Of a stretch of 51,035 bases of DNA, positions 10,614-38,351 are shown one piece after another. A program made the translations under genes and the position numbers. The stretch comes from Thalassotalea sp. 42_200_T64 (GTDB taxonomy: Bacteria > Pseudomonadota > Gammaproteobacteria > Enterobacterales > Alteromonadaceae). The notes below the pieces were generated by a model. That model was given only the letters and a program-made list of their open reading frames with translations, did not search any database and had not been told where the DNA came from. Every line of letters begins with the position of its first letter. Position 1 is the first letter of the stretch. The stretch spans positions 1 to 51,035 of the forward strand of contig MABC01000052.1 of assembly GCA_002162925.1 (NCBI GenBank), written 5' to 3'.

Positions 10614-10629
10614 TTGACACTTTTGTCAA
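10614..10629. promoter_or_regulatory. RutR-like operator, tsx side
   Basis: Perfect 6-bp-arm palindrome TTGACACTTTTGTCAA in the gap between decayed tsx and the class V aminotransferase. Its form TTGAC-N6-GTCAA equals that of a site upstream of xdhA. Confidence 0.65.
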
Positions 10630-10692
10630 CTATTATTTTTTGAGAAAACCTATTAATATGTATAAAGGGTCAAATGTTCTGATCGGCAAGAA

Positions 10693-10721
10693 TTGACGCG
10701 AGTGTCAGGTTTTGTTATCAA
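10693..10721 (+). promoter_or_regulatory. RutR-like operator overlapping the aminotransferase promoter
   Basis: TTGACGCGAGTGTCAG (10693-10708) matches TTGAC-N6-GTCAA except for the last base. Its first hexamer TTGACG also reads as a -35 element, 17 bp before TATCAA (10716-10721), 80 bp ahead of the ATG. Binding here would block RNA polymerase. Apart from this site and the one at 10614, the gap 10447-10800 is AT-rich without other structure I can name. Confidence 0.55.
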
Positions 10722-10800
10722 ATAGATAAGTCACCTAAACTCAGCTTCCCGAGTTCAGGTTAAGTCATCATTATTTCAACAAGTAAAGGCAAAGCCAAAA

Positions 10801-11922
10801 ATGAACGTTCAATCTTTTAATCCTCCTCGCAGGATCTTAATGGGTCCAGGCCCGTCGGACATTAGCCCAGAAGTATTATCTGCATTATCTAGACCGGTAA
10901 TTGGTCATTTAGACCCCTTGTTTGTGGGTATGATGGATGAAATAAAAGCATTGCTGCAGTATGCTTTTCAAACCAAAAATGAATTTACCATCGCCCTTTC
11001 AGCACCTGGTTCGGCGGGTATGGAAGCCTGTTTTGTCAACCTGGTAGAAGCGGGTGATAAAGTCATTGTGTGTCGTAATGGCGTATTTGGCGATCGGATG
11101 ATCCAAAATGTGACCCGCATTGGCGCCGAAGCCATCGTCGTTGACTCTCCTTGGGGGCGGGCGGTTGAAGTCGACAAAGTGGAACAAGCATTAATTGCCA
11201 ACCCAGACGCTAAATTCTTGGCATTTGTGCACGCTGAAACCTCTACCGGAGCGGTATCTGACGCGAAAACCTTATGTGCGCTGGCGCAACAACACGATTG
11301 CTTATCTATTGTTGATGCCGTTACATCCCTTGGTGGTATTGAACTTAAGGTAGATGACTGGGGCATTGACGCCATTTATTCCGGTTCACAGAAATGTTTA
11401 TCTTGTGTGCCGGGCTTATCGCCGATTTCGTTTAGTGAAAAAGCGGTAACTGCGATCAAAAATCGCAAGACGGTAGTACAAAGTTGGTTCTTAGATCAAT
11501 CACTGGTGATGAGTTATTGGTCTGGTGCAAGTAAGCGTAGTTACCACCACACAGCCCCGGTTAATTCACTCTATGGTTTGCATGAATCCTTAGTGCAGTT
11601 GCAAAACGAAGGCCTTGAGAACCGCTGGGCACGACATCAAGCACAGCATGAAACACTAGCCAAAGGTCTGGAAAAACTCGAGATTGAATTTATTGTGCCG
11701 AAAGCAGAGCGTTTACCGCAATTAAATGCGATTTATATTCCTCGAGGGGCTGATGATGCGAAAGTAAGAAACTATTTACTGAATCATTATAACCTGGAAA
11801 TTGGCGCTGGTTTGGGCGACTTTGCCGGCAAAGCTTGGCGTATCGGCCTCATGGGTTATGCCGCCAGAAGTGAAAATGTTGCCTTATGCTTAGCCGCCCT
11901 TGAAGATGCTTTATACCAATAA
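10801..11922 (+). CDS. alanine/serine-glyoxylate aminotransferase, class V
   Basis: 373-residue PLP enzyme of the AGXT/SPT/PucG group, which transfers an amino group to glyoxylate to give glycine. The start RILMGPGPSDISPEVLSAL is diagnostic, HAETSTGAVSD is in the substrate region, and Lys198 in YSGSQKCLSCVPG should bind PLP; an arginine near the end (AWRIGLMG) should bind the carboxylate. Donor specificity (alanine, serine, or ureidoglycine as in PucG) cannot be read from sequence. The purine cluster makes glyoxylate by the allantoicase and ureidoglycolate lyase route, and this gene carries the same palindrome as xdhA, so glyoxylate disposal during purine breakdown is likely. Confidence 0.88.
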   Translation: MNVQSFNPPRRILMGPGPSDISPEVLSALSRPVIGHLDPLFVGMMDEIKALLQYAFQTKNEFTIALSAPGSAGMEACFVNLVEAGDKVIVCRNGVFGDRMIQNVTRIGAEAIVVDSPWGRAVEVDKVEQALIANPDAKFLAFVHAETSTGAVSDAKTLCALAQQHDCLSIVDAVTSLGGIELKVDDWGIDAIYSGSQKCLSCVPGLSPISFSEKAVTAIKNRKTVVQSWFLDQSLVMSYWSGASKRSYHHTAPVNSLYGLHESLVQLQNEGLENRWARHQAQHETLAKGLEKLEIEFIVPKAERLPQLNAIYIPRGADDAKVRNYLLNHYNLEIGAGLGDFAGKAWRIGLMGYAARSENVALCLAALEDALYQ

Positions 11923-11975
11923 GCTAAATTTATTGACAATAATTTTCACCATGTGCAATCGAAAAAGAGATGACA

Positions 11976-12515
11976 ATGGAACATAAAATTGAGGTGATGA
12001 TCTCTGAACAAGAGATCAAAGAGCGAGTGGCGCAATTAGGGCAACTAATAAGCGATCATTACCGAGACAGTGATAATTTAGTTATGATTGGTCTATTACG
12101 TGGTTCATTCGTGTTTATGGCTGACTTAGCCAGAGCAATAACCGTTAGTCATAGCGTTGATTTTATCACCGCGTCCAGTTACGGCAATAGCATGGAAAGC
12201 TCTCGTGATGTGCATATTCTTAAAGATCTCGATGATAACATTGAAGGCAAAGATGTATTGCTGGTGGAAGATATCATTGATACTGGCAACACCTTAAGTA
12301 AAGTGTTACAAATTTTGCACTTACGCGAACCAAACTCTATCCAAATCTGCACCTTATTAGACAAGCCGATGCGTCGTGAACAGGCGGTTGAGGTGAAATG
12401 GGTAGGGTTTGAAATACCGGATGAATTTGTCGTGGGTGTTGGCATTGATTACGCACAACAATATCGCCATTTACCCTACATTGGCAAAGTCGTTCCGCTA
12501 GCAGAAGATACTTAG
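11976..12515 (+). CDS. hpt: hypoxanthine phosphoribosyltransferase
   Basis: 179-residue purine salvage enzyme making IMP (and GMP less well) from hypoxanthine and PRPP. It aligns throughout with E. coli Hpt: [32 protein letters not shown], the PRPP loop [23 protein letters not shown] and [21 protein letters not shown] start at ATG 11976, where family proteins begin and where AGAG has proper spacing; ATG 11970 abuts the ribosome site. It follows the aminotransferase by 53 bases and may be co-transcribed. Salvage and catabolism of the same bases are thus near each other. Confidence 0.95.
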
Positions 12516-12550
12516 CTCAATATCTTGGCAATCGGTCTAACAGCTTTTAT

Positions 12551-12578
12551 GATTTCGTAAAAAGTATTTTATGAAATC
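12551..12578. promoter_or_regulatory. candidate enhancer site for the NtrC-type regulator
   Basis: Inverted repeat GATTTCGTAAAA (12551-12562) / TTTTATGAAATC (12567-12578), 11 of 12 positions paired, spacer AGTA. It is centred about 108 bp before the start expected from the sigma-54 promoter, a normal distance for an upstream activator site. Assignment to the regulator at 17194 is inference. Confidence 0.55.
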
Positions 12579-12646
12579 GGAAAAAATATATTTCAAAAAC
12601 GTCACGAAAACATAACAAACCAAACAAAAACAAGTAATTAATAAAC

Positions 12647-12662: not shown

Positions 12663-12694
12663 CCTTAACGTTATAACAAACTTAGGAGCAAACA

Positions 12695-13948: not shown

Positions 13949-13959
13949 CGGGAACCATT

Positions 13960-23902: not shown

Positions 23903-24529
23903 CTAGTGGATACCACAGCCTTTTAGAATGATTTGCGTTAACGAGGCGACTACATCTTCAAAATCGTCATCGGTCATCTCATCTTTGTTTAACGCCGCCA
24001 CAACTTGCACATTAAAGTCGGCGTAATGTTGGGTGGAACTCCAAATTAAGAATAATAAATGATGCGGATTCACCTTATCGATTAAGCCGTTGTCAATCCA
24101 AGCGTCAATAACGGCGACTTTACTTTGCAGCCACGCTTTAAAATCAGTATTGAGATAGTCATTCAATACCGGCGCGCCATGAATTAACTCACTGGCAAAT
24201 ATTCTCGAGGAATCTGGGTCATCCCGGGAATGCATCACTTTGGCGCGAATATAAGCACTCAGTGCCGCTTTCGGCTCGTGATCGGCATTTAAGGTATCAT
24301 AATCTCGGTTCCACACCTCGATGATATTGCCTAGCAGTTGCTGATAAAGATCGGTTTTGTCTTGAAAGTAATAATGGATATTCGCGCGGGCAATATTCGC
24401 CCGTTCGGCAATACGCTTAATTGACGCACCCTTAAAGCCATAAGTGACAAACTCCTTTTTGGCTGCATTTAAGATGATAGCTTTATTCTTTTGCCGAATA
24501 TTGCCTTCATTGGCTTTAGCCTTTACCAC
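23903..24529 (-). CDS. RutR-like TetR-family regulator
   Basis: 208 residues with an N-terminal TetR helix-turn-helix (FVTYGFKGASIKRIAERANIARANIHYYFQDK) and the C-terminal domain of RutR. It shares with E. coli RutR the series SRLFxxExxxGAP, WxxxGxxxxxxPxHLxFxIW-STQHYADFxxQV and ILKG near the end. RutR senses uracil or thymine in E. coli. GTG start with AGGAG 5 bases upstream. It is the last gene of the purine catabolic run, 114 bases after glcB, and may have its own promoter. Palindromes of RutR form lie before xdhA and the glyoxylate aminotransferase, so I infer that it controls purine use here; the ligand may be a purine or ureide. Confidence 0.88.
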   Translation of the reverse strand: MVKAKANEGNIRQKNKAIILNAAKKEFVTYGFKGASIKRIAERANIARANIHYYFQDKTDLYQQLLGNIIEVWNRDYDTLNADHEPKAALSAYIRAKVMHSRDDPDSSRIFASELIHGAPVLNDYLNTDFKAWLQSKVAVIDAWIDNGLIDKVNPHHLLFLIWSSTQHYADFNVQVVAALNKDEMTDDDFEDVVASLTQIILKGCGIH

Positions 24530-24643: not shown

Positions 24644-26842
24644 TTAATTTACCGCTTTTGACTCAATACGGCGCGCGTGCAATAAGGGCTCGGTATAACC
24701 ACTGGGTTGCTCCTTGCCTTTGAAAATTAAATCCGTTGCCGCTTGAAAAGCAATGTTACGGTCAAAATCAGCTGCCATTGGCGCATAGCTTGCGTCGGTA
24801 ATGTTTTGCTGATCAACCACTGTTGCCATACGTTGTAACGATGCCAACACTTGCTCTTTGGATAACACACCATGGTGTAACCAGTTACAAATGTGCTGAC
24901 TCGATATGCGTAAAGTTGCCCTGTCTTCCATCCGGCCAACATTGTCAATATCGGGGACTTTTGAACAACCCGTGCCTTGATCAATCCAACGTACGACATA
25001 ACCAAGCAAGCCCTGGACATTGTTATCTAATTCGTTTTGAATATCTTGCTGGCTCAGCTGATGTTGATTTGTCAATAATGGAATGGTTAATAAATCGGTT
25101 AAATCATCACGGTTTTTATTGTCGCCATTGGCGATAAATTGCTTAAACATGGTATCTTGAATATCAGCTACATTGACTTGGTGGTAATGCAAAACGTGTA
25201 AAGTCGCTGCCGTTGGTGATGGTACCCAGGCGCAGTTGGCACCGGATTTAGGATGTTCAATTTTAGCAGCCATCATCGCCGCCATCTCATCAGGTATTGC
25301 CCACATGCCCTTACCTATTTGGGCTTTGCCTTTAAGACCTGCTTGCAGGCCAATGCGCACATTTTGGTTTTCATAAGCGCTGATCCACTTCTCATTTTTC
25401 ATCAGCGCTTTACGCGCCATCGGCCCGGCTAGCATGCTGGTGTGTATCTCATCGCCAGTACGGTCTAAAAAACCTGTATTGATAAAGGCCAAACGATTCT
25501 TGGCGGCACGGATACACTCTTTTAAGTTAATTGAGGTGCGACGCTCTTCATCCATAATGCCCATTTTAATGGTATTGGTTGCTAAGCCTAAGCACGCTTC
25601 AATGCGAGTAAATAATTCATTGCTAAATGCCACCTCGTCCGGGCCATGCATTTTTGGTTTAACAATGTAAATACTGCCCTGGCGCGAGTTTTTAACCGAC
25701 GAATTGCCTTTTAAGTCATGTAATGAAATTAAGGTGGTGATCAAACCATCTAAGATCCCTTCCGGCACTTGCTGGTTATCTTTGGTAAGTACCGCATCAT
25801 TGGTCATTAGATGACCCACGTTACGAATAAACAACAAGCTACGTCCGGGTAAGGTAAAAGAGTCATTACCGGGCGTGGTATAGCTTCGATCGCTATTGAG
25901 TTTGCGGACCATGGTGACACCATTTTTTTTCAGCGTTTCGGCTAAATCGCCTTTCATTAATCCTAGCCAGTTTCGATACACCGCGGTTTTGTCGTCCGCA
26001 TCCACCGCAGCAATGGAATCTTCGCAATCCTGAATGGTAGTCAATGCCGATTCTAGAATGATGTCCGCTACCGATGCCGGATCGGTTTTTGCCACCGGCG
26101 TGCTTGGATCAATTTTAATTTCGATATGCAGGCCATTGTTGTTGAATAAAATCGCACTGGGGTTTTGTTCATCGCCATTAAAGCCAACAAACTTACTTTC
26201 ATCAACTAAACTTACCCGCTCGCCTGATTTAAGGGTAACGAACAACTTGCCTTTGGCTACCTGATAGCTCTCAGCTTCACTATGATTGGCCCCGGTTAAC
26301 GGGATCACCTCATCTAAGAATTGACGAGCATAGGCTTGTACTTTCGCGCCTCGAACCGGATTGTACGTTTTGTTAATTGCGGCGCCATCTTCATCGCTAA
26401 TAACGTCTGTGCCATAAAGCGCATCGTACAAACTTCCCCAACGGGCATTCGCGGCGTTTAAGGCGAAACGGGCATTCATTAATGGCACCACAAGCTGTGG
26501 CCCAGCAACGGTGGCCACTTCATCGTCAACATAGGTGGTGGTGATAGCAAAGTCTTCTTTTTCCACCACAATGTAACCGATATCCTGTAAAAACTGTTGG
26601 TATTTTTTCGGGTTAAAAGGCTGGTTTAGTGGGTCCAAGTGCCAGGCATCTATTTGTCTTTGAAAGTCTTGCCGAATGGCTAATAGCTGCTGATTTCCAG
26701 GAATGAACTCATCGAAGATATCGGCCATAGATTGCCAAAAATCTTCGACATCGATACCCGTACCCGGGATCACTTCATGGTTTACTAAATTATAAAGAGA
26801 CTCTGCCACTTTATAACCGTGTTTGATCACTCTTTTATTCAT
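24644..26842 (-). CDS. glcB: malate synthase G
   Basis: 732 residues, the usual length of isoform G, which condenses glyoxylate with acetyl-CoA to malate. Landmarks: ARWGSLYDALYGTDVI near residue 130, TIQDCEDSIAAVDADDK, GPDEVAFSNELFTRIEA, IKMGIMDEERRTSINLKECI, GLQAGLKGKAQIGKGMWA and the catalytic-Asp segment MEDRATLRISSQHICNWL. It is 18 bases downstream of puuD on the same strand. Glyoxylate here would come from ureidoglycolate, so this gene connects purine breakdown to central carbon. The isocitrate lyase partner of the glyoxylate bypass is not in the window. Confidence 0.97.
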   Translation of the reverse strand: MNKRVIKHGYKVAESLYNLVNHEVIPGTGIDVEDFWQSMADIFDEFIPGNQQLLAIRQDFQRQIDAWHLDPLNQPFNPKKYQQFLQDIGYIVVEKEDFAITTTYVDDEVATVAGPQLVVPLMNARFALNAANARWGSLYDALYGTDVISDEDGAAINKTYNPVRGAKVQAYARQFLDEVIPLTGANHSEAESYQVAKGKLFVTLKSGERVSLVDESKFVGFNGDEQNPSAILFNNNGLHIEIKIDPSTPVAKTDPASVADIILESALTTIQDCEDSIAAVDADDKTAVYRNWLGLMKGDLAETLKKNGVTMVRKLNSDRSYTTPGNDSFTLPGRSLLFIRNVGHLMTNDAVLTKDNQQVPEGILDGLITTLISLHDLKGNSSVKNSRQGSIYIVKPKMHGPDEVAFSNELFTRIEACLGLATNTIKMGIMDEERRTSINLKECIRAAKNRLAFINTGFLDRTGDEIHTSMLAGPMARKALMKNEKWISAYENQNVRIGLQAGLKGKAQIGKGMWAIPDEMAAMMAAKIEHPKSGANCAWVPSPTAATLHVLHYHQVNVADIQDTMFKQFIANGDNKNRDDLTDLLTIPLLTNQHQLSQQDIQNELDNNVQGLLGYVVRWIDQGTGCSKVPDIDNVGRMEDRATLRISSQHICNWLHHGVLSKEQVLASLQRMATVVDQQNITDASYAPMAADFDRNIAFQAATDLIFKGKEQPSGYTEPLLHARRIESKAVN

Positions 26843-26860: not shown

Positions 26861-28051
26861 TTAAGAATTATTGGCAATCCATATTGCCAGCAACTCACGC
26901 TCTTGTTCGGTCATTTGAGTTTTATTCATAAATGGCATGTCTTTGGCGTCAATTACTCGAGCTTTAATTCTCGGTGCCCATTGCTCAATAGAAGTCATAT
27001 CATTAAAAACCACACCCGCGGGTGCTATGGTAAAGACATCATCGGTTGGTGTTGCTGAATGACAGCTGGCACACCGTTGTTCAATGATCGCTTGCACTTT
27101 GGCAATATTAACCGTTTGTCGTTTTTGCTCCGCCGTGAACTCAGTTGCACGAGGGGCAATGGCAAACGCGAGAATGATGGTGGCGACCACCGAACCCACT
27201 AACACCATAGGCTTTTGCTTACCAAAATGACGCAGGACAAAATACTGACGAACCGCGGCGGTGATTAAAATAATGGCAATTAACACTAACCAGTTCGCAC
27301 TATGATTATAGGTCATCGGGTAATGATTTGAGATCATAATGAAGATGACCGGTAGTGTGGTATAAGTGTTATGGGTTGAACGAAGCTTTGCGTTTAAGCC
27401 GTAAGCTGGGTCTGGCACCGCTCCCTCTTCAACCGCTTTCACTAACGCCCGTTGTGACGGCATAATGCCGAAAAATACATTACCCGCCATGATGGTACCG
27501 ATAATAGCACCCATGTGCATGTAAGCACCGCGCGCACTGAATACTTGGGTTAAACCGTAGGATAACGCGGTGCCGATAACAATTAAAATCACGCCTAAGA
27601 TAACCCCATGTTCTCTTAATTTGGTTCTTACTAACACCTCATAACTGCCCACACCAACCACAATCGAACCAAGGCCTAAGGCAATCGCTTGAAATTGCGT
27701 TAAAACCGCTACGCGCTTGTCGATTAAATACGATTCAGCACCGACATAAAACATTAATGACAGTAATAAGAAACCGGTGATCCAGGTGGTGTATGCCTCC
27801 CATTTAAACCAATGTAAAGTGGTTGGCATTTTCTCGGGTGCCAGTTTGTATTTTGCTACTTCGTAAAAACCACCACCGTGAATGGCCCAAAGATCACCAC
27901 CAATGCCTTTATCGGCTTTCCATTGTGGCGGGTTTTCTAAATGATTATCTAACCAGACAAAATAAAACGAAGCACCGATCCAGGCAATGCCGGTAATAAG
28001 GTGAGCAAAGCGAATAACTAAATTTAACCATTCATTAATATAGGGATCCAT
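26861..28051 (-). CDS. puuD: membrane-bound urate hydroxylase with cytochrome c domain
   Basis: 396-residue PuuD-type enzyme oxidising urate to 5-hydroxyisourate and passing electrons to a c-type haem, so no peroxide is expected. The N-terminal 300 residues form about eight membrane spans, beginning WLNLVIRFAHLITGIAWIGASFYFVWLDNHLE. The C-terminal domain has a single haem motif CASCH (about residues 327-331) and a Met ligand candidate in DAKDMPFMN. No soluble uricase is present in the cluster, so this is the urate-oxidising step. It lies 36 bases after guaD and 18 before glcB. Known members were described in proteobacteria lacking other uricases. Confidence 0.93.
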   Translation of the reverse strand: MDPYINEWLNLVIRFAHLITGIAWIGASFYFVWLDNHLENPPQWKADKGIGGDLWAIHGGGFYEVAKYKLAPEKMPTTLHWFKWEAYTTWITGFLLLSLMFYVGAESYLIDKRVAVLTQFQAIALGLGSIVVGVGSYEVLVRTKLREHGVILGVILIVIGTALSYGLTQVFSARGAYMHMGAIIGTIMAGNVFFGIMPSQRALVKAVEEGAVPDPAYGLNAKLRSTHNTYTTLPVIFIMISNHYPMTYNHSANWLVLIAIILITAAVRQYFVLRHFGKQKPMVLVGSVVATIILAFAIAPRATEFTAEQKRQTVNIAKVQAIIEQRCASCHSATPTDDVFTIAPAGVVFNDMTSIEQWAPRIKARVIDAKDMPFMNKTQMTEQERELLAIWIANNS

Positions 28052-28087: not shown

Positions 28088-29374
28088 TTAAACACGCTCA
28101 CCCATGATATGAGTGGCTTTAACGTGGCGTTCATCGCCAAGCATGCTCAAAATAAATAGCTTTTCTGACAACGATTTACAGTATTGCATGCGTCTATCCA
28201 TCAGCGGCGTGGCATGATAATCAAGCACAATAAAGTCAGCTTCTGCGCCTTTAGTGAAGTTACCTATGGTGCCCTCAAGATCTAACGCTATGGCTCCTCC
28301 TAATGTGGCCAAATAAAACGATTGAAATGGGCTAAGTTTATCCGAGCGAAGTTGTTGAGTTTTATAACCTTCGTTTAACGTACTCAACATTGAGAATGTC
28401 GTGCCGGCACCAATGTCTGTGCCGTAACCAACATTAATATCAAATTTTTGCGCCTGCTTCAGGTTAAATAAACCACTGCCTAAAAACAGGTTCGAGCTTG
28501 GACAAAAAGCAATGGCCGAGTCAGTTTCCCCTAAACGCTGACATTCACTGTCATGTAAATGCACACCGTGAGCGAAAACGCTGCGACGACCCAGTAATTG
28601 ACTTTGATCATACACATCCAGGTAGCCTTTACTTTCAGGAAAAAGATCTTTAACCCAGGCAATCTCAGCTTTATTTTCGCTTAAGTGCGTATGTAAATAT
28701 ACGCTTGGGTTTTCCGCCAGTAATTGGCCCGCTTTATTTAATTGCTCACTTGAACAGGTAGGGGCAAAACGTGGCGTGATCGCATATTGTAAGCGATCGG
28801 TTTTATGCCATTTTTTAATCAAGGCTTTACTGTCGTCATAACCCGTTTGCGCGGTATCCGATAAGTAATCAGGACAGTTTTGGTCCATTAATACCTTGCC
28901 GCAAATCATCCTTAATTTTTTCTGTTGAGCGATAGTGAAAAATGCCTCAACCGATTCTTTATGCACAGTACCAAACACTAAAGCGGTAGTGGTTCCGGCT
29001 TCTAGCAACTGCGTTAAGAAGAACTCAGCCACTTTTTTACCATGCTCTAAGTCGGCAAATTTACGCTCAAATGGAAAAGTATAATTCTCTAGCCATTCGA
29101 GTAATTGTTCACCATAGGAGGCGATCATTTCAGTTTGTGGGTAATGCACGTGCGTGTCGATAAAGCCTGGCATCATTAACCCATGTTCATAATGAGTAAC
29201 CTCTATGCTCTCATCCAATGTTGCTAACAACTCAGCGGCTTCACCAACTTGTTCAATTAGCCCATTTTTAATAATCAATAAACCATCTGCGATATACTGG
29301 TAACTGTCTTCGAGAGCAACTTTGCCTGGGTCGGCCAAAAAGTGCAGTAATTCGCCGCGATATACTTTTAACAT
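28088..29374 (-). CDS. guaD: guanine deaminase
   Basis: 428-residue amidohydrolase converting guanine to xanthine plus ammonia. Zinc-site motifs are PGFIDTHVHYPQTEM, HTHLSENKAE, FAHGVHL and the aspartate in YGTDIGAGTTFSML; length and order fit bacterial GuaD. AAGGTG lies 9 bases before the ATG. A 198-bp gap separates it from allA, the longest inside the cluster, and contains a long-loop hairpin (ATCGCC/GGCGAT, 29400-29430), so guaD-puuD-glcB may also have a separate promoter. Confidence 0.95.
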   Translation of the reverse strand: MLKVYRGELLHFLADPGKVALEDSYQYIADGLLIIKNGLIEQVGEAAELLATLDESIEVTHYEHGLMMPGFIDTHVHYPQTEMIASYGEQLLEWLENYTFPFERKFADLEHGKKVAEFFLTQLLEAGTTTALVFGTVHKESVEAFFTIAQQKKLRMICGKVLMDQNCPDYLSDTAQTGYDDSKALIKKWHKTDRLQYAITPRFAPTCSSEQLNKAGQLLAENPSVYLHTHLSENKAEIAWVKDLFPESKGYLDVYDQSQLLGRRSVFAHGVHLHDSECQRLGETDSAIAFCPSSNLFLGSGLFNLKQAQKFDINVGYGTDIGAGTTFSMLSTLNEGYKTQQLRSDKLSPFQSFYLATLGGAIALDLEGTIGNFTKGAEADFIVLDYHATPLMDRRMQYCKSLSEKLFILSMLGDERHVKATHIMGERV

Positions 29375-29572: not shown

Positions 29573-30091
29573 TTAACTTTGTGCGATGACCAGTGAGCCA
29601 TCCAATTCGAGGACATCACAGTTGTCGCCCTCACCGCCTCTATCGACCACTAAAAAGTCACTTTCGCTGCCAAGCGCAAGACAAAAGTGATGCCAGGTAC
29701 CTTTGTGGTAATTTATCCCTTGATTGGAGTTGGCCAGAAAGACTTCAATATTATTGCGATCAAACTCACCAGCAGGGGCAACAACAATCAAATACGGGTT
29801 GTCTCCCATCGGAATAAACGCCTGGCTACCATGCGGGTGGCGTTCCATCATTTTAATGGCGATAGGTTGGGTTAACGGCGTTGAACGAAAAATATTGAGC
29901 AAGGTGTGACCCTCATGATCATTAACATCAACCTTGGCTAAATCGTGATAACGCTGAGTAAAGCCGTCATTAATGGCAAAGCTTTTTGCCTCAGCACTCG
30001 CTTCAATCACATCACCAAAGGCACTGAACGCATCCTTGGTCAGTGGTTTTGGCGTAACAATTTGCAAATTATCCGTCATCATAGTGTCCAT
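29573..30091 (-). CDS. allA: ureidoglycolate lyase
   Basis: About 172 residues; splits ureidoglycolate into glyoxylate and urea. The AllA pattern is clear: LTKDAFSAFGDVIEA, RYHDLAKVDV, MMERHPHGSQAFIPM, NQGINYHKGTWHHFCLALG and DFLVVDRGGEGDNCDV. The open frame extends to 30124 but the first 11 residues overlap uraH and are not family-like; ATG 30091 (or 30079) is preferred, 10 bases after the uraH stop. Together with allantoicase it completes the ureidoglycolate route rather than the ureidoglycine route. Confidence 0.92.
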   Translation of the reverse strand: MDTMMTDNLQIVTPKPLTKDAFSAFGDVIEASAEAKSFAINDGFTQRYHDLAKVDVNDHEGHTLLNIFRSTPLTQPIAIKMMERHPHGSQAFIPMGDNPYLIVVAPAGEFDRNNIEVFLANSNQGINYHKGTWHHFCLALGSESDFLVVDRGGEGDNCDVLELDGSLVIAQS

Positions 30092-30101
30092 TAAGTCTCG
30101 A

Positions 30102-30443
30102 TTAACTACCACGATAAGTTGCATAACCGAATGCGGTTAGTAACAACGGAATGTGGTAATGACTGTTGCCGCCATCCAGTTCAAAGACAATATCAACGTA
30201 CGGATAAAAACCATTTTCGTTATTGGCTTTGAAGTAAGTGCTAGTACCAAAGTGCATGCGATATACGCCAGCGGCAAGCACAACCTCATCGGCTAACAAG
30301 CCAGTTATCCGGCCATCAACATTGGTCACGCCAGAGGCTAATTGTTGCCAGCCATCATTGGTTTGTGTATATAAGGTGATAGGTAACCCTTGCGCTGGCA
30401 GTCCACGAGTTGTGTCTAATACATGCGTGGTGATTTGGCTCAT
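30102..30443 (-). CDS. uraH: 5-hydroxyisourate hydrolase
   Basis: 113 residues, transthyretin-related protein. It hydrolyses 5-hydroxyisourate, the unstable product of PuuD. Signatures: TTHVLDTTRGLPAQGLPITL at the N-terminus with the catalytic histidine, the RITGLL arginine segment, HFGTSTYF, and the hallmark C-terminal tetrapeptide YRGS. Start overlaps the stop of uraD by four bases, so the two successive enzymes are coupled. Confidence 0.97.
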   Translation of the reverse strand: MSQITTHVLDTTRGLPAQGLPITLYTQTNDGWQQLASGVTNVDGRITGLLADEVVLAAGVYRMHFGTSTYFKANNENGFYPYVDIVFELDGGNSHYHIPLLLTAFGYATYRGS

Positions 30444-30940
30444 AATAATTTCTCTAATCGTAAGTGGAATATTTTGCGCTGCTCTTCGGCAGCAGTGGCT
30501 AATTCGGTAGCTTTATCATTGGCTAAACGAGCCAGCAAAAGCGCCAGCATTTGTGCCGCGCTTTTACCGGTGGCGCAAACAATAAAAATAAAACCAAATT
30601 TTTCCAGATAATCGGCATTGCCTTTGGCCAAATCGACTAACACTTGTTCGGTGGCGCACTTGACTGAACTTTGCTCATCGCTGGCCAACTCTTTGGTATT
30701 GGCATATTTTGCCCGCAACGTATCCACATTACCGATTTGCGGATGACCTTCAAAGGCTGCCAAATAATCGGCTTGCGCCAGCTCTTGCCAGGCCAAATCC
30801 GCTCGAATAGTTACCGCACGCCTATCGGCAAAAGGACGGGCTTGCACCATAGCGCTCACCCAAGTTGCTGCCGTACAACACTGCATAAAAGTATGTGTCG
30901 CTTGCTCAACGGTTAGACTATTTAATTGTTCTAAATTCAT
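30440..30940 (-). CDS. uraD: OHCU decarboxylase
   Basis: 166 residues; decarboxylates 2-oxo-4-hydroxy-4-carboxy-5-ureidoimidazoline to S-allantoin. Family motifs are FMQCCTAATWVSAMVQARPFADR, the FEGHPQIGNVDTLRAKY catalytic-histidine segment with the following KELASDEQS, and YLEKFGFIFIVCATGKSA. It sits 11 bases after alc and overlaps uraH. With PuuD and UraH it gives a complete urate-to-allantoin path. Confidence 0.96.
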   Translation of the reverse strand: MNLEQLNSLTVEQATHTFMQCCTAATWVSAMVQARPFADRRAVTIRADLAWQELAQADYLAAFEGHPQIGNVDTLRAKYANTKELASDEQSSVKCATEQVLVDLAKGNADYLEKFGFIFIVCATGKSAAQMLALLLARLANDKATELATAAEEQRKIFHLRLEKLL

Positions 30941-30951: not shown

Positions 30952-32022
30952 TTAAGCGTTACGTTTACCAAATACTCGCATACGTGATATTCCGCCGTCT
31001 GGGAATATATTTAAACGTACATGGGTAAAGCTTTGCTCGGGGCTGACAACGATTTCATTAATAAATAAGTGTTCACGATGTGCATACAATTTGGTACGAG
31101 CAATAATGGCTTGCCATTTGTCTTCTTGCTGGCCATTGCTAAAATCATCACTGGTCGACACCAGCCCTTCGAGGGTGAAGGTGTCAGGGAAGTTACCTTT
31201 AAAGTGACAAGTATCCACGATCACTTTTTCAATGCTGCCACGGCACGCAAGTTTAACAATCGACCAGTCTGGCCCCGGATCACGGCGACGTTTGGTTTCC
31301 CAACCATCAGCCATGTCTTTACCACGGCCCGGCATGATTAAGTTGTTTTTATCACTAAAAAACATATCGCTTACCAGTAACGCTTTGCCGCCATTTTTAA
31401 TGTAGGCTAAATCGATTAACTCGCCGTCAATAAAGTGCTTCCAATCAACATCGGCTTCACCATAAACACGAATACGGGCGATACCGCCATCAGGGAACAT
31501 GTTTAAACGAATGTGAGTCCAGGCAGTATCATTGTTAAGAGCAAAAATATTTTGACTGTGCGCTGCTACTGACGCTTGCTCTAAAACGGTATGCCATACA
31601 GTATCTGCATTGGGTTCAACTTCACTGACACACGCTTCTACTGATACAGACTCAGGAGCATTGCCGCGGAAGAAGTTGGTATCGATGTCAAAACCACGAA
31701 TAACACCTTTGATGCCAAGACGAATGATGCACCAATCGAACTCACGGCCGCTTTCTCTTTGGTGGGCACGACCATAGCTACGGCGAGATTCCCAACCGTC
31801 CATCCATTTACCTCTGTCGGTAAATTTATCATCGATAAAAATACCGCGACCGGGCTTGATCAGGTTTTCCATTTCGGCAAAAAAATCGTCACTGCAAGAC
31901 AGGGTTTCACCGCCGACGCGTGCACTGGCTAAGTCAACACAGTGGTTTTTTAATTTACCTTCTAACGCAAGCGGCTCACCGCTTAATTGGTTTTGTTGTT
32001 GGCTATCTATGTCTTGCATCAT
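30952..32022 (-). CDS. alc: allantoicase
   Basis: 356 residues built of two similar jelly-roll halves, each with the repeated pattern DFF-E-NLIKPGRG...GWESRRR and later RLNMFPDGGIARIRVYGE / RLNIFPDGGISRMRVFGK. It converts allantoate to ureidoglycolate and urea. ATG 32022 is followed at once by a second ATG. This enzyme, not an allantoate amidohydrolase, determines that urea instead of ammonia is released at this step. It lies 93 bases after allB. Confidence 0.96.
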   Translation of the reverse strand: MMQDIDSQQQNQLSGEPLALEGKLKNHCVDLASARVGGETLSCSDDFFAEMENLIKPGRGIFIDDKFTDRGKWMDGWESRRSYGRAHQRESGREFDWCIIRLGIKGVIRGFDIDTNFFRGNAPESVSVEACVSEVEPNADTVWHTVLEQASVAAHSQNIFALNNDTAWTHIRLNMFPDGGIARIRVYGEADVDWKHFIDGELIDLAYIKNGGKALLVSDMFFSDKNNLIMPGRGKDMADGWETKRRRDPGPDWSIVKLACRGSIEKVIVDTCHFKGNFPDTFTLEGLVSTSDDFSNGQQEDKWQAIIARTKLYAHREHLFINEIVVSPEQSFTHVRLNIFPDGGISRMRVFGKRNA

Positions 32023-32115: not shown

Positions 32116-33495
32116 TTAAAGTCGCCCCTTAAGTAATGGTCTGCCTACGGGTGCATTGATAAATTCATCTTGCTGATATACATGCTGACCACGAACAAAC
32201 GTATGCTGTACTTGCCCGGTTACTTTACGGCCAGCGTATGGCGTAATGTGATGACGATGTTTAATCATCTCATTAGTAATAGTGAATTGGGCATTTGGAT
32301 CAAATACTAAAAAGTCAGCATGGTTGCCGATTTTAATTTCACCCTTAACCGTGTCTAAGCCTGCAAATTTTGCAGTTTCCGTTGCCATTAAACGCACAAT
32401 ATCAACTAAGCTAAAACCACGTTCTTTCGCTTCAGTCCAAATCAATGAAATGCCAAATTGTAGCGCTGAAATGCCACCCCATGCCTTTTCAATATCCCCC
32501 GTATCGATGTGCTTTAATTCAGGTGTGCAGGGCGAATGATCAGACACGATAAAGTCTAAGCGACCATCGGTGATCGCCTGCCATAAGTGTTCACGATTTT
32601 TATTTTCACGAATTGGCGGACAACATTTGAATAACGTTTTGCCATCGGGAATGTTTTCCGAGGCAATGGTTAAGTAATGTGGACACGTTTCAGCGGTAAA
32701 GCGTAAACCTTCGCTCTTTGCCTCGGCAATAGTTTCTAAGGCTTCATCCGAAGATAAATGCACGATGTGAACTTTACAATTATCGCCCTTGGCTTTTGAC
32801 TCGCGAGCCATATCTAGCATTAATGAAATAGCATCATTTTCCCACTTTTTCGGACGAGACTCTAAAAAACTGTTGTATTTTTCATTGATAACAAGGTCAT
32901 CAAAACTACCACAATCCAATTCCGCATGAATTAAATAAGGCACATCGTGTTTGGCTAAAATTGGCATTGCGGCGCGAATGTCTTTGGCTTCGACGTGTGG
33001 AAACTCTTTAATGCCAGAGTCGATTAAAAATGATTTAACCCCTAGTACACCAGCATTAAGCAATTCGTCTAAATCATCGATGTTTTGCGGGATAACGCCG
33101 CCCCAAAAACCACAATCGACCCATAATTTGTCCCCTACCGAATCAAGCTTTTCTTGAAACGCGGCTTTGGTGGTGGTGACCGGAATACAGTTTAATGGCA
33201 TATCGACTAACGCGGTAATACCACCGGCAGCTGCCGCTTGAGTCGCGGTGTTGAAGCCTTCCCATTCGGTACGACCCGGTTCATTGATGTGTACGTGTGA
33301 ATCAACCAAACCCGGCATAATGACTTGCTCAGCATAATCCAATACTTCACAGGATAACGCTTTTCCATAAGGGTGAATGGCATGGATAAGTTCGTCTTTA
33401 ACTTCCACACAAGCGGCAACCATTTCACTGCTGCCGCTCTTACCGTTACTCGTGTTTACGATGACGTTTTTACTCTGTAGGGCAAAATGAGACAT
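32116..33495 (-). CDS. allB: allantoinase
   Basis: 459-residue cyclic amidohydrolase of the AllB type, opening allantoin to allantoate. Motifs: PGLVDSHVHINEPGRTEWEGF (metal histidines), the GVKSFLID lysine expected to be carboxylated, HAELDC, HIVHLSSDEAL, and DHSPC with the last metal aspartate. It is not the PuuE polysaccharide-deacetylase-type allantoinase. Located between xdhC and alc on the same strand. Confidence 0.96.
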   Translation of the reverse strand: MSHFALQSKNVIVNTSNGKSGSSEMVAACVEVKDELIHAIHPYGKALSCEVLDYAEQVIMPGLVDSHVHINEPGRTEWEGFNTATQAAAAGGITALVDMPLNCIPVTTTKAAFQEKLDSVGDKLWVDCGFWGGVIPQNIDDLDELLNAGVLGVKSFLIDSGIKEFPHVEAKDIRAAMPILAKHDVPYLIHAELDCGSFDDLVINEKYNSFLESRPKKWENDAISLMLDMARESKAKGDNCKVHIVHLSSDEALETIAEAKSEGLRFTAETCPHYLTIASENIPDGKTLFKCCPPIRENKNREHLWQAITDGRLDFIVSDHSPCTPELKHIDTGDIEKAWGGISALQFGISLIWTEAKERGFSLVDIVRLMATETAKFAGLDTVKGEIKIGNHADFLVFDPNAQFTITNEMIKHRHHITPYAGRKVTGQVQHTFVRGQHVYQQDEFINAPVGRPLLKGRL

Positions 33496-33536: not shown

Positions 33537-34436
33537 CTAATCAAGAGTAAGTAATTGCTTAAATTCTTTCCTATGGATGCCCTGTTGTGATGTCGGGCGT
33601 GTTTTCATACCTGAGTTTGACGCTGAGGCTGCTCCAATATTTTGTTGAGCTAATTCTTTCTGCTCGGCTTGATAACAATTGATAACTTCTGCCGCAACTG
33701 ACACTGCCACTTCCATTGGCAACTTACCGCTAACTTGTTCTAGCCCTATTGGACACTTCATCCGGGCAACCTGGTGTTGATCAAGATCACGGTGCTTGTA
33801 GCGCTGTTGAAAACGACGCCATTTAGTATCCGATGCAATAAGGCCTAAATAATTAAAATCGGCGCGTTTTAAAATGGCTTGTGTTATATCAAAATCCATC
33901 TGATGATTATGAGTCATCACAATGTAATAGCTATTTTCCGGCATGCTTGCCACTTCATCTTCTGGCTCTTCGCTAACCACTTGATGAACATTATGACAAG
34001 CATCCAGATTGACCGGAAATTGCTGTTCACGGCTATCGACCCATGTTACCTGGCAAGGCAATTGCGCTAACATAGGGATTAATACCCTACCCACATGGCC
34101 GGCGCCGAACAACATAATGTTTACCCCAACCGCGGCAAAATATTCAAACAACACACTGGCATTACCTCCGCAGCATTGACCTAAGTTACTGCCAAGTTGA
34201 AAGTGCTCTAAATGTTGGCAGTCTTTGCCGCTTGCCAGCATTTTTTGTGCATGCTTTATGGTTTTATGCTCTAAATGACCACCACCGATAGTGTCAAAGG
34301 TTTGCTCTTTGCTGATCACCATTTTGGTGCCGCTGTTTCTTGGCGTCGAACCAGAGACTCCAACTAATGTCACTAACACATAAGCCTTGCCTTGCTTACT
34401 TAATTGGTAAGCGGCGCTGTTCCAGTTCATCGACAT
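33537..34436 (-). CDS. xdhC: xanthine dehydrogenase accessory protein XdhC
   Basis: 299 residues; binds and sulfurates the molybdenum cofactor and delivers it to XdhB. N-terminal part has GVSGSTPRNSGTKMVIS and the LGQCCGG cysteines; C-terminal part is a Rossmann domain (IMLFGAGHVGRVL) with MTHNHQMDF and GLIASDTKWRRF. The last 40 residues (ASASNSGMKTRPTSQQG...) are polar and low in complexity and are not part of the usual family. It follows xdhB by 15 bases. Confidence 0.95.
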   Translation of the reverse strand: MSMNWNSAAYQLSKQGKAYVLVTLVGVSGSTPRNSGTKMVISKEQTFDTIGGGHLEHKTIKHAQKMLASGKDCQHLEHFQLGSNLGQCCGGNASVLFEYFAAVGVNIMLFGAGHVGRVLIPMLAQLPCQVTWVDSREQQFPVNLDACHNVHQVVSEEPEDEVASMPENSYYIVMTHNHQMDFDITQAILKRADFNYLGLIASDTKWRRFQQRYKHRDLDQHQVARMKCPIGLEQVSGKLPMEVAVSVAAEVINCYQAEQKELAQQNIGAASASNSGMKTRPTSQQGIHRKEFKQLLTLD

Positions 34437-34451: not shown

Positions 34452-36809
34452 TTATGCGTTTGCTTTCATCGCTTCAACCGCCCAAAGCACGCGTTCAGGA
34501 GTTGCTGGTGTATCGAGTGCCGGGCTTGCTTGATAACCAGAGACACTCGAAATCGCGTCTTTAAGAGCAGACCAAACAGACATCCCCAACATCAATGGAG
34601 GCTCACCTACCGCCTTCGAGTTGTAGATGGTTTGTTCATGGTTTGGTTCATCCGGCATCAAGTTGACACGAAAATCAATCGGCGCGTCACTAATGGCTGG
34701 AATTTTGTATGTTGCCGGGTTATTTGAGAGTAAACGGCCCTGTTCATTCCACAGCAACTCTTCGGTGGTTAACCACCCCATGCCTTGAATAAATGCACCT
34801 TCAATTTGGCCGATATCAATCGCCGGGTTCAGTGAATGTCCGACATCATGCAAGATGTCGGCACGAAGTAATTTATATTCACCGGTTAAGGTATCGATTA
34901 AGACTTCTGATACCGCTGCACCCGTTGAATAGTAGAAAAATGGACGTCCCTTAGCGGTTGCTCGGTCAAAGTGAATCTTTGGCGTTTTATAAAACCCGGT
35001 TGACGATAACGACACACGGCCCATATAGGCTTGTTGAACAAACTCGGCAAAGGAGAATTTTTCAGCGCCAAGATGAACTTGGTTGTTGCGAAACACGACT
35101 TCGTCTGCACTGACCTTGTATTGTTCACAAGCGAAGTTGATCAGTCTTTGTTTAATGGTTTTGGCAGCCGCTTGTGCCGCTTTACCATTTAAGTCGGTAC
35201 CTGATGACGCGGCCGTAGGTGAGGTGTTTGGAACTTTATCAGTACGAGTTGCGGATACGCCTACGGTATCTACGTCTACTTGAAACTCCTCGGCAACGAT
35301 TTGTGCAACTTTGGTATATAAACCCTGGCCCATTTCGGTACCACCATGGTTTAAATGAATGGTGCCATCTGTGTATAGATGAACCAAAGCCCCTGCTTGG
35401 TTTAAATGTTGCACGGTAAATGAAATACCAAATTTAACTGGCGTTAAGGCAATGCCTTTTTTCAAAATGGTGTTTTCACGATTGAATTTGCTAATGCTTT
35501 GACGACGCGCCTGATAGTCTGAACTTTGTTCTAGTGCCGCAATAAGCTCAGCTATTTTATTATGTTCAACCGTTTGATGATAATGGGTTTCGTTACGCTC
35601 ATCTTTACCATATAAGTTGATTTTGCGTATTTCTAACGGGTCTTTACCAAGATGACGGGCGATATCGTCCATAACCATCTCAATGGTCATCATCCCCTGC
35701 GGACCACCAAAACCACGAAACGCTGTGTGCGATACCGTATTTAGCTTACAACGATTGCCGGTAACCGTGGCTTGATCTAAAAAGTAAGCATTATCAGAGT
35801 GGAACATGGCTCTGTCGACAATCGCGTCGGATAAATCTGCTGAATAACCACAGTTGCCATTTACATTAATGTTAATGCCTTTGATTTGACCATTAGCATC
35901 AAACCCTACGCTGTAGTCATTTTCAAACGGGTGACGTTTGCCGGTCATACACATATCATCTGAGCGACTGAGTTTGAACTTAACCGGGCGTTTTGTTTCA
36001 TTTGATAATAAAGCCGCAAGACATGCCCAAGGCGCGGCTTGTGTTTCTTTACCGCCAAAGCCCCCCCCCATACGGCGAGTATCGACAGTCACTTTATTGA
36101 GGGGAATAGCTAATACTTCGGCTACTAGCTTTTGCACTTCACTCGGGTGCTGTGATGATGAAAATATCGTCATGCCACCGTCTTCAGTAGGTTCTGCCGT
36201 TGAAATTTGTCCTTCAAGATAAAAGTGTTCTTGACCACCAACCGTGATTTCACCAGACAATTGATGTTCGGCTTGTTCAATCGCGGTCGCCGAATCACCT
36301 CGTTTCATGATAAACGGTGGACGTACAAAGTGTTGTTTGGCTAATGCATCTTTCACCGTCAGCACGGCTGCTAATTCTTCATATTCGATCTTGGCGAGTT
36401 TAACCGCACGTAGTGCTAAGTCGTGGCTTGTGGCGGCAACGGCGAATATTGGCTGGCCAACGTATTCAACTTTACCAATAGCAAGCACCGGGTCGCCTGG
36501 AAATACCGGGCCAATGTCTGTATGCCCGGGAACGTCGTCTACCGTAATAACCGCCACTACACCTTCGGCAGATTTTACTGCGCAAAGGTCTATACTTTTG
36601 ATATTGCCATGAGCGATAGTGCTCTGCCCAACGGCAGCGTGTAACTGCCCTGTTAGCTCTGGTCTATCGTCAATATAAAGCGCTTCACCGCTTACATGTT
36701 TGTCGGCACTTTCATGTTTCTTTGCTCGTCCAACGCCACCTAAACCAACAGTCTCACTTTCATTGTTGATAGTATCATTAGAGTGATTTGCATCGATAAG
36801 GCTACGCAT
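34452..36809 (-). CDS. xdhB: xanthine dehydrogenase, molybdenum subunit
   Basis: 785 residues; binds molybdopterin and hydroxylates hypoxanthine and xanthine to urate. Landmarks: SADKHVSGEALYIDDRPEL near the start, GQEHFYLEGQ, RRMGGGFGGKE, TAFRGFGGPQGMM, GTEMGQGLYTK and the catalytic glutamate in KAVGEPPLMLG close to the C-terminus. The start lies 8 bases inside the end of xdhA, ensuring paired synthesis. Confidence 0.97.
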   Translation of the reverse strand: MRSLIDANHSNDTINNESETVGLGGVGRAKKHESADKHVSGEALYIDDRPELTGQLHAAVGQSTIAHGNIKSIDLCAVKSAEGVVAVITVDDVPGHTDIGPVFPGDPVLAIGKVEYVGQPIFAVAATSHDLALRAVKLAKIEYEELAAVLTVKDALAKQHFVRPPFIMKRGDSATAIEQAEHQLSGEITVGGQEHFYLEGQISTAEPTEDGGMTIFSSSQHPSEVQKLVAEVLAIPLNKVTVDTRRMGGGFGGKETQAAPWACLAALLSNETKRPVKFKLSRSDDMCMTGKRHPFENDYSVGFDANGQIKGININVNGNCGYSADLSDAIVDRAMFHSDNAYFLDQATVTGNRCKLNTVSHTAFRGFGGPQGMMTIEMVMDDIARHLGKDPLEIRKINLYGKDERNETHYHQTVEHNKIAELIAALEQSSDYQARRQSISKFNRENTILKKGIALTPVKFGISFTVQHLNQAGALVHLYTDGTIHLNHGGTEMGQGLYTKVAQIVAEEFQVDVDTVGVSATRTDKVPNTSPTAASSGTDLNGKAAQAAAKTIKQRLINFACEQYKVSADEVVFRNNQVHLGAEKFSFAEFVQQAYMGRVSLSSTGFYKTPKIHFDRATAKGRPFFYYSTGAAVSEVLIDTLTGEYKLLRADILHDVGHSLNPAIDIGQIEGAFIQGMGWLTTEELLWNEQGRLLSNNPATYKIPAISDAPIDFRVNLMPDEPNHEQTIYNSKAVGEPPLMLGMSVWSALKDAISSVSGYQASPALDTPATPERVLWAVEAMKANA

Positions 36810-38259
36810 AATTAACTACCCGTGTTTCAATATTTCTACTTTGTAATTCTAAGTAACATTTTTGTATTAAGTTTTGCGCAACTTTCATCCGGTATTTGTC
36901 ACTGGCACGAACATCTGTCATCGGTTGGAAATCTTGTGTTAATGCTTGTTGGGCAGCCGCAATATTGTCACGGTTAAGCGGCTTGTTTAATAATGCCGCT
37001 TCACACCGTTTGGCACGCATTGGAATAGCTGCCATACCACCAAAAGCAATACGCACCTTGGTGGCAACATTGTCTTCAAGCTCTAAGAAAAATGCACCAA
37101 GGACAGCTGAGATATCGTCATCAATACGTTTTGAAATTTTATAAAGCTTAAGCACTTGCCCTGGCTTTGCTTTTGGAATGTAGATGTCTTTGATGAATTC
37201 AGAATCGTTTAGGTCGGTTTTTTTGTAAGCAACAAAATAATCTTCTACTGCTATTTTACGTGCGCTGTCACCACGCTGCAGGGTCATTTTTGCCCCTAAA
37301 GCAATTAACGCTGGTGGCATATCACCAATTGGCGAAGCGTTACCAATGTTACCGCCTAAGGTGCCGTTATTGCGCACTTGTCTTGAACCAATACGTTCTA
37401 TCATTGCACCAAGCTCATGATATTCATCATTTAGCATTGGCGTAAATTCACTATAAGGTACGGCTGAGCCAATAATAAATTGCTCATCGTTATTTTCTAG
37501 CGTGTGTAACTCTGCTACATCACCTAAGTACACCAAGTCATTTATGGTGTTTAAGTTTTGCGTTACCAAAAGCGCCAAATCGGTACCACCGGCAACTAAG
37601 GTTGCGTTTGGCTTGGCAATTAATTTTTGCGCAAGTTCGGCAATGCTTTTTGGAGCAAAGTAACTGTGATTGGTATTTGCCAGCGTTACCGAGGGTAATT
37701 GTTTGAAATGATTTAACTGCTGTACGGTTTGTTTATAGTGCAGGGCAAATGAATCGGCTTCTGCATGTTCACTTGACTCCATCGCGGCATCGATTATCGA
37801 ACGATAGCCGGTACAACGACACAAGTTACCAGCAAGAGCTTCGACCACTTCAGCCCTGCTTGGCGTGTTGTTTTGTTTATGTAAAGCAAACGACGACATC
37901 ACAAATCCTGGTGTACAAAAACCACATTGTGAACCGTGGTTATCAACAATAGATTGTTGTACATGATGCAACTTTGCACCTTGTTTAAGATGTTCAACCG
38001 TGATCAGCTGTTTACCATGTAAGCTACCAACAAAGCAGATACATGAATTAATCGATTTGTATTTGAGCTCCTGATCCTTGCTGGTTAATTCTGCCACGAC
38101 AACGGTACAAGCACCGCAATCACCCGAACTACAACCCTCTTTGGTGCCAGTATTAAACTGTATTTCGCGTTGGTATTGCAGGACCGTCAAATTCGGGTCG
38201 ATGTTTTCTATGGTCACAACGTCGTTGTTTAATAAAAAATGAACTGTACTATTTGTCAT
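36802..38259 (-). CDS. xdhA: xanthine dehydrogenase, FAD and iron-sulfur subunit
   Basis: 485 residues. The N-terminal 2Fe-2S domain has CSSGDCGACTVV and a later cysteine in NSCICF; the second cluster domain has GSQCGFCTPGFVMS and GNLCRCTGYRSI. The FAD domain begins near residue 200 (ATLVAGGTDLALLV ... GTLGGNIGNASPIGDMPPAL). First gene of the catabolic run. A TTGAC-N6-GTCAA palindrome lies 77 bases upstream of the ATG, in the position expected for a repressor site over the promoter. Confidence 0.97.
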   Translation of the reverse strand: MTNSTVHFLLNNDVVTIENIDPNLTVLQYQREIQFNTGTKEGCSSGDCGACTVVVAELTSKDQELKYKSINSCICFVGSLHGKQLITVEHLKQGAKLHHVQQSIVDNHGSQCGFCTPGFVMSSFALHKQNNTPSRAEVVEALAGNLCRCTGYRSIIDAAMESSEHAEADSFALHYKQTVQQLNHFKQLPSVTLANTNHSYFAPKSIAELAQKLIAKPNATLVAGGTDLALLVTQNLNTINDLVYLGDVAELHTLENNDEQFIIGSAVPYSEFTPMLNDEYHELGAMIERIGSRQVRNNGTLGGNIGNASPIGDMPPALIALGAKMTLQRGDSARKIAVEDYFVAYKKTDLNDSEFIKDIYIPKAKPGQVLKLYKISKRIDDDISAVLGAFFLELEDNVATKVRIAFGGMAAIPMRAKRCEAALLNKPLNRDNIAAAQQALTQDFQPMTDVRASDKYRMKVAQNLIQKCYLELQSRNIETRVVNYA

Positions 38260-38335
38260 AATTTGTTCCGTTTTTGATCTGGTCGAATTGGTGAATGATC
38301 AATTTGCTCTGACTTAAATATACCAGAATAGAAAC

Positions 38336-38351
38336 TTGACACAAATGTCAA
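38336..38351. promoter_or_regulatory. RutR-like operator of the purine catabolic operon
   Basis: Perfect palindrome TTGACACAAATGTCAA, 77 bp upstream of xdhA. The E. coli RutR site has the same length and the same outer five bases on each side (TTGAC-N6-GTCAA). It overlaps possible -35 sequences of the xdhA promoter. Confidence 0.75.

Follow-up and report, generated by a model that had tools for sequence, protein, structure and literature searches.

A 51,035-nucleotide contig of Thalassotalea sp. 42_200_T64 (MABC01000052.1; this whole stretch is referred to as the window) carries a purine catabolic operon that begins with the xanthine dehydrogenase gene xdhA and ends with a gene for a RutR-type regulator of the TetR family. 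A 16-bp palindrome occurs upstream of xdhA, and two further copies lie in the gap between a broken tsx gene and a class V aminotransferase gene. The palindrome is very probably the operator of this regulator (probability about 0.86), and the inner bases of its half-site, AC, together with an arginine and a histidine in the recognition helix, would separate the purine switch from the pyrimidine switch of related repressors. As judged by genome comparison, site and regulator travel together, and the site stays with the first gene of the operon and marks the promoters of orthologous aminotransferase genes. At the level of sequence, what is new is that operator and recognition helix have changed as a pair between purine and pyrimidine paralogues. 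An earlier reading of this DNA, here called the first-pass annotation, had proposed that the TetR protein binds the palindrome and controls purine catabolism, including the aminotransferase; the comparisons below support these proposals.

Conservation of the palindrome

Orthologues of the window TetR protein with at least 63% identity, termed group P, were found in 44 of the 295 genomes of the family (hand count, the window's own genome included), and operon regions were fetched for most of these genomes. The consensus YTGACAC-N2-GTGTCAR (strict form YTGACACNNGTGTCAR), hereafter AC, was drawn from the xdhA promoters of 37 loci of this set, and the RutR-like motif YTGACCA-N2-TGGTCAR (strict form YTGACCANNTGGTCAR), hereafter CA, was scored beside it. 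The promoter test considered 44 P loci and covered 41, because no start could be used in L045, L066 and L077. L169 and L159 stood in for G101 and G207 in place of loci without a usable start, and G080 was tested as L241; G057 and G073 stood outside the test, as did the probable duplicates L005, L008 and L010, which belong to the consensus set.

Upstream of the first operon gene, AC is present within two mismatches in 41 of 41 P loci and within one mismatch in 38 (shuffles expect 0.01 within one), and a RutR operator, scored as CA within two mismatches, was found in none of the 41. L241, with one mismatch to AC, brings the tally for genomes that carry the TetR gene to 42 of 42 tested, and the conservation that the first-pass annotation had proposed to look for was thus found. 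Its pattern TTGAC-N6-GTCAA marks a real site, the consensus of which is now sharpened to the AC form; the outer bases are shared with RutR, as it had stressed, and the informative difference from RutR is in the inner ones. The weakest sites (L073, L078 and L081) have two mismatches each, and the site of L072 lies 407 bp from xdhA. Where the operon is headed by allantoicase (L068, L076 and L080), the site precedes the allantoicase gene. In G207 the TetR gene and the operon are on separate contigs, and AC is kept at both the operon and the aminotransferase (L159, L160). G073 has an exact AC site approximately 180 bp from xdhA by coordinates. When 32 loci were registered on the site, the site columns were 94.5% identical, a figure somewhat inflated by registration on the best match, against 48% in the 50 bp to the left and 62% in the 60 bp to the right. 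In group P2, whose TetR proteins are about 52% identical to that of the window, AC separates the TetR gene from a divergently oriented operon headed by a phosphorylase-superfamily gene (L161, L162) or by xdhA (L164).

The aminotransferase promoters were examined in 30 fetched loci among the matches to the window protein. All 20 loci with at least 81% identity have AC within two mismatches (shuffles expect 0.03), 17 of them within one, and eight carry two AC sites 65-79 bp apart, as the window does. Ten fetched paralogues at 75-78% identity gave no AC within two mismatches; one (L137) has a site with three. The aminotransferase therefore appears to be a member of the regulon, as first annotated. 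Its gene is found no more than about 6 kb from the TetR gene in L064, L070, L074, L075, L160 and L177, and in L163 a 76% homologue closes the purine operon and has no AC site of its own (L139).

Across the 295 genomes, the strict AC pattern is present in 73, many of the sites being CG-centred and belonging to another regulon. Exact AC sites with an AT centre are present in 40 genomes, and the reversed control pattern is present in none. Of the 49 genomes that encode a P or P2 regulator, 37 have such a site, against three of the 246 others (hand tally), which is the co-occurrence of site and regulator that the first-pass annotation had suggested checking. The sequence TTGACACCGGTGTCAA recurs several times per genome (L171, L172; also G017, G063, G149, G187, G113, G138, G158 and G169), in L171 with one copy just upstream of a LacI-type gene; these sites are a separate regulon with a confusable palindrome. 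In L168, from a genome without a close P regulator, exact CTGACACTTGTGTCAG was seen at 2132, 9777 and 9807, one of them as the complement, with a gene for a sigma-54 activator domain nearby.

Further AC sites extend the candidate regulon. An exact site precedes a xanthine/uracil permease gene in G259 (L173). In G061 (L306), AC heads a run of uridine kinase, nucleoside transporter and DeoC-type genes and CA precedes a divergent receptor-like gene; G013 (L298) resembles this arrangement by gene sizes. An unexpected target is the phosphoglucose isomerase gene, which is preceded by exact AC in all five loci L299-L303.

The number of palindromes in the window is weak evidence by itself. The three copies are present where first reported, the one at 10693 with one mismatch to TTGAC-N6-GTCAA, and this pattern with at most one mismatch gives six window matches against 1.91 expected, only weakly above chance because 5 of 100 shuffles reach six. 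The other three matches (3467, 34663 and 47503) sit within open reading frames (ORFs), that at 34663 within xdhB. Genome-wide counts refer to the source assembly of 3.62 Mb, which is 87% complete. The exact pattern occurs there in seven places, and its loose form is not enriched (155 matches with at most one mismatch, 204 in the reversed control). With one mismatch YTGACRNNNNYGTCAR has 102 matches against 75 in the reversed control; its exact form is found in four places, namely the three sites above and C46:10431, which was set aside as an operator because it lies inside a 1278-aa ORF.

Recognition helix and proposed operators of RutR-type clades

The window TetR protein scores over the cut-offs of both TetR_N (PF00440) and TetR_C_3 (PF08362), which places it in the RutR superfamily and agrees with the RutR-like C-terminal domain noted at first. 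Against the RutR equivalog TIGR03613 it reaches 199 bits, below the curated cut-off of 368. Its gene is linked to the purine operon, as in most fetched P loci, and the linkage to pyrimidine genes expected of RutR was not seen. The AlphaFold2 model (mean pLDDT 86) has a TetR fold nearest to E. coli RutR entries in Foldseek, with 4jyk, which contains bound uracil, ranked first. No second TetR_C_3 protein was found in the source genome. Of 370 genomes of the class searched with the TetR protein, 13 matched at E 1e-30 or better, three of which (G000, G001 and G024) are of the window's own family; the best matches outside the family, 43-44% identical, were used as outgroups. A control search for TetR_C_3 across 14 named genomes had matches in E. 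coli and Caulobacter only.

Other RutR-type clades of the family were compared for their candidate sites. Group Y proteins are 39-45% identical to the window TetR, and their genes lie with genes whose products, as annotated in L184, are an outer-membrane receptor, cytidine deaminase and thymidine phosphorylase. The 11 Y loci have CA exactly in eight cases, with one mismatch in two and with two mismatches in one; AC was found among them only at L194 (exact) and L191 (two mismatches), each time beside a CA-like site before a receptor gene. Group D comprises different RutR-type TetR genes divergent from xdhA, with 36 fetched loci. By hand count, 65 genomes have xdhA and no P or P2 regulator; 34 of these were fetched as D loci, along with G022, G048 and, earlier, L195 and L210. 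About the first 22 D loci were chosen for a RutR-type gene already seen beside xdhA, the others by xdhA position alone. The D loci have CA within one mismatch in 30 of 36 cases, within two in 35 and within three in 36, and AC within three mismatches in none. In L281, where xdhA is present and the fetched stretch contains no RutR-type gene, both motifs are absent. The use of the RutR family at purine catabolism, as first proposed, holds up, and the D loci, with a RutR-like site facing xdhA, show that it is not special to the window's lineage. In G180 and G212 a D regulator with a CA-like site at xdhA (L265, L289) coexists with a P regulator with AC at allantoicase (L076, L080).

AC and CA sites also stand close together, at L194 (14754/14784), L191 (5651/5674), L306 (4012/4042 and 13863/14089) and L298 (6585/6811), before outer-membrane receptor genes and the run of uridine kinase and nucleoside transporter genes. 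The arrangement looks as if both paralogues acted on shared uptake promoters.

A 117-protein tree separates each of P, P2, Y and B (a further RutR-type clade) from all other rows by a single branch. P groups with P2 as its sister (support 97/84). A clade made up of 35 of the 36 D rows plus one outgroup row (100/99) falls on the same side as Y and E. coli RutR (97/87), and the remaining D row, L280, is joined to L195, close to Y. The deeper order is unsure owing to long branches. Helix residues and operator state were compared in 100 RutR-type rows of five groups. RutR position 52 is arginine in 45 of 45 P and P2 proteins and lysine in 47 of 47 D and Y proteins; position 56 is histidine in 45 of 45 and leucine in 46 of 47, respectively. 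The window equivalents are R48 and H52. A model of E. coli RutR places K52 at a guanine contact (PMC10891134). RutR positions 42 and 43 differ as well.

Three natural intermediates are informative. L200 combines R52 with L56 and has CA with one mismatch beside xdhA and exact CA further on; L195 and L280 combine K52 with H56 and have CA-like sites with two mismatches. Either helix change alone would therefore go with CA and both together with AC, except in clade B, where both changes are present and neither motif is. Before the head of a malic-enzyme cluster, tandem palindromes resembling TATCTTGATATCAAGATA and 27 bp apart were seen in five B loci (L178, L179, L180, L181 and L196); they could not be assigned as B-clade operators. 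This cluster includes a 234-aa gene, the B-clade RutR-type gene, a second PuuD-like gene and a xanthine permease gene (annotated in L178, partly in L196).

The residues around uracil in RutR are W77, Y97, W167, Q171 and Q179 of the partner subunit (PMC10891134). In the alignment, all five are unchanged in the window protein and throughout the P and P2 proteins (45 of 45), so that a change of ligand is not established by sequence. Xanthine and urate have the same ring edge as uracil, and the P-clade ligand may be uracil-like.

Proposed mechanism and alternative explanations

In the mechanism we propose, a TetR dimer bound at the xdhA promoter would mask its -35 region and block RNA polymerase; this placement follows from a conserved TG-N-TATATT-like stretch 13 bp after the palindrome. 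A dimer would likewise occupy the paired operators in the gap that separates tsx from the aminotransferase gene. Repression would last until a small oxopyrimidine or oxopurine (a uracil-like compound, xanthine or urate) enters the conserved uracil-type pocket. The P/P2 half-site TTGACAC would replace the TTGACCA kept by Y, the pyrimidine-nucleoside paralogues, and by D, the second purine-operon clade; paired with the changes of RutR K52 to R and L56 to H, it would keep the purine and pyrimidine switches apart.

The palindrome could instead belong to another regulator, for example of the LacI family, with the TetR gene as a linked bystander. LacI-type regulons of relatives do use TTGACACCGGTGTCAA, and a LacI gene lies beside such a site in L171; the exact AC sites of G048, G155 and G171 without a close TetR gene also fit this explanation. 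However, the TTGACACCGGTGTCAA sites are CG-centred, and the sites at xdhA and the aminotransferase mostly are not, nor are those of the window. AC tracks the P/P2 regulator, even between the P2 TetR gene and its operon, and stays in G207, where the regulator is unlinked; the sister clade D has a RutR-type motif at the same promoter, and no LacI protein was found in the part of the window ORFs that was scanned. We regard this explanation as improbable. Still less credible is a palindrome kept for RNA polymerase as a -35 element and no operator at all. TTGACA is the sigma-70 -35 consensus, and the site is just upstream of the conserved TG-N-TATATT, but both arms and the 16-bp spacing are conserved, the 23 bp between TTGACA and TATATT are too long for a -35/-10 pair, and many sites begin with CTGACA, while D-clade promoters have TTGACCA there.

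Some observations weigh against the palindrome as operator of the TetR protein. G048 (85% complete) has AC before xdhA, and a close TetR was not found; G155 and G171 have exact AC without a P or P2 regulator, the G155 site being located within an ORF. Clade B has neither AC nor CA within two mismatches in eight of eight loci despite R52 and H56, and the single change K52R leaves E. coli RutR able to bind its customary boxes in vitro (PMC10891134). The contrast between aminotransferase orthologues and paralogues is imperfect because the 76% identical paralogue of G084 carries an exact AC site. Since P loci share ancestry, their counts are not independent events, and since the consensus was taken from the same xdhA promoters, the P-promoter count measures conservation and is no independent prediction. 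The aminotransferase, P2 and D tests are more independent.

The role of the aminotransferase within the regulon is a separate question. Under the TetR control proposed here, the enzyme may serve ureidoglycine or amino-acid recycling and not act as a glyoxylate sink. Purine catabolism includes class V enzymes of the PucG and HpxJ types, PucG and UGXT are among the structure matches, and the window's allantoinase and allantoicase have no homologues in some operons; we nevertheless consider recycling unlikely, though a serious contender. The nearest solved structures are alanine--glyoxylate aminotransferases (best E 1e-101), above PucG (6e-74), and the former outscore PucG by 344 to 253 bits, for which reason an assignment as PucG or a ureidoglycine--glyoxylate type was dropped. 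The window operon includes allantoicase, which by the ureidoglycolate route leads to glyoxylate as the end product, so a glyoxylate sink is the likeliest role: the enzyme probably disposes of glyoxylate beside malate synthase G.

With doubt slightly outweighing confidence, we also put forward a wider picture. RutR-type repressors would hold purine catabolism in at least two clades, D and P/P2; in P/P2, operator and helix would have changed together (CA to AC, K52/L56 to R/H), giving two orthogonal pairs that could coexist in a cell, divide one pathway between them and come together at uptake promoters with both kinds of site, and the retained uracil pocket would read the uracil-like ring of xanthine or urate.

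Genes of the window and comparison with known systems

The genes next to the palindromes match their first description by family-profile searches. Read on the minus strand from 38259 to 23903, the genes specify the conversion of guanine and xanthine into glyoxylate and malate, and the TetR gene comes last.

Features of the window, with coordinates, strand and supporting remarks
Feature	Coordinates	Strand	Remark
Proposed operator before xdhA	38336..38351	-	TTGACACAAATGTCAA, minus strand TTGACATTTGTGTCAA; 76 bp from xdhA start; kept in 42/42 tested genomes
Putative extended -10 (TG-N-TATATT)	38317..38322	-	13 bp past operator; TG.TATA.TT kept in 32-locus footprint; function inferred
xdhA, xanthine dehydrogenase small subunit, first operon gene	36802..38259	-	TIGR02963 over cut-off
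xdhB, xanthine dehydrogenase molybdopterin subunit	34452..36809	-	TIGR02965 over cut-off
xdhC, accessory protein	33537..34436	-	TIGR02964 over cut-off
Allantoinase	32116..33495	-	TIGR03178 over cut-off
Allantoicase	30952..32022	-	TIGR02961 over cut-off
OHCU decarboxylase	30440..30940	-	PF09349
HIU hydrolase	30102..30443	-	PF00576
Ureidoglycolate lyase	29573..30124	-	PF04115
Guanine deaminase	28088..29374	-	TIGR02967 over cut-off
PuuD-like urate oxidase (Urate_ox_N)	26861..28051	-	PF06181
Malate synthase G	24644..26842	-	TIGR01345 over cut-off
RutR-type TetR regulator (P clade), proposed operator binder	23903..24529	-	PF00440 + PF08362
Class V aminotransferase, nearest alanine--glyoxylate aminotransferases	10801..11922	+	domain and structure-database scores
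Proposed second operator, tsx/aminotransferase gap	10693..10708	+	TTGACGCGAGTGTCAG; 79 bp beyond first; one mismatch to TTGAC-N6-GTCAA
Proposed first operator, tsx/aminotransferase gap	10614..10629	+	TTGACACTTTTGTCAA
Broken tsx (nucleoside porin), divergent from aminotransferase	9618..10446	-	three-frame alignment; intact relative = Pfam Tsx

The tsx gene is dead, as the first-pass annotation had it: the Tsx protein of a relative aligns to it in three frames. A xanthine/uracil permease gene near the operon (20746-21850) is broken as well; relatives have both genes whole (L175, L165). Decay and assembly error are indistinguishable as the cause in both genes. In seven operons (L047, L049, L052, L054, L056, L059 and L061), homologues of the window's allantoinase and allantoicase were not found in the fetched 20 kb, which leaves a pathway gap there unless the genes lie elsewhere. 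Two Shewanella loci (L003, L004) have TetR orthologues beside purine genes that are 86% identical to the window's, closer than many family members; horizontal transfer is possible. A SulP-type transporter gene close to the operon has weaker AC-like sites upstream of it in L165 (5426), L045 (940) and L006 (12393); none was found before the SulP-type transporter position in the window.

The closest known system is E. coli RutR (PDB 4JYK, 3LOC, 6Z1B). It shares with the window TetR the fold, TetR_C_3, 38-39% identity in Foldseek and the five uracil contacts. Its operator letters, which we take to be TTGACCA-N2-TGGTCAA, agree with the window palindromes in the outer positions. The RutR operator is likewise a 16-bp palindrome (PMC10891134). 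In contrast to E. coli RutR, the P clade has AC and not CA in the inner half-site and R/H and not K/L in the helix, and the window TetR lies in a purine catabolic operon and below the RutR equivalog cut-off. E. coli RutR does have a purine-side target, gcl-hyi-glxR, though its loss left glxR expression unchanged (PMC10891134). The RegPrecise RutR regulons, reconstructed in 68 proteobacterial genomes, concern pyrimidine catabolism and show taxon-specific motif changes; they differ in that no purine regulon is named in the accessible part of that description (PMC5343134). Titles and abstract openings, with supplements and subscription papers outside the scope, gave no description of an AC operator or of a purine-specific RutR clade. 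PucG and ureidoglycine--glyoxylate aminotransferase (3isl, 3nnk) resemble the window aminotransferase as class V enzymes of purine catabolism; the window enzyme scores lower to them, and its operon has allantoicase.

Paralogous repressors must avoid each other's operators, a problem usually studied with built mutants. About 100 natural RutR-type proteins sort here into the operator states CA, AC and neither with few changes in the reading helix, and these states, with the intermediates L200, L195 and L280, make a rule of two residues and two bases testable. A regulator can also be tentatively assigned to the complete purine-to-glyoxylate pathway of marine bacteria, with an alanine--glyoxylate-type aminotransferase tied in, which raises the question of how unchanged uracil contacts could serve purine breakdown. 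The assignment bears on PA1504 of Pseudomonas aeruginosa, a TetR protein with a RutR-type C-terminal domain near an allantoin-inducible glyoxylate cluster, which was raised as a possible regulator of that cluster, described as under study, in a report whose accessible part names no operator (PMC12694930).

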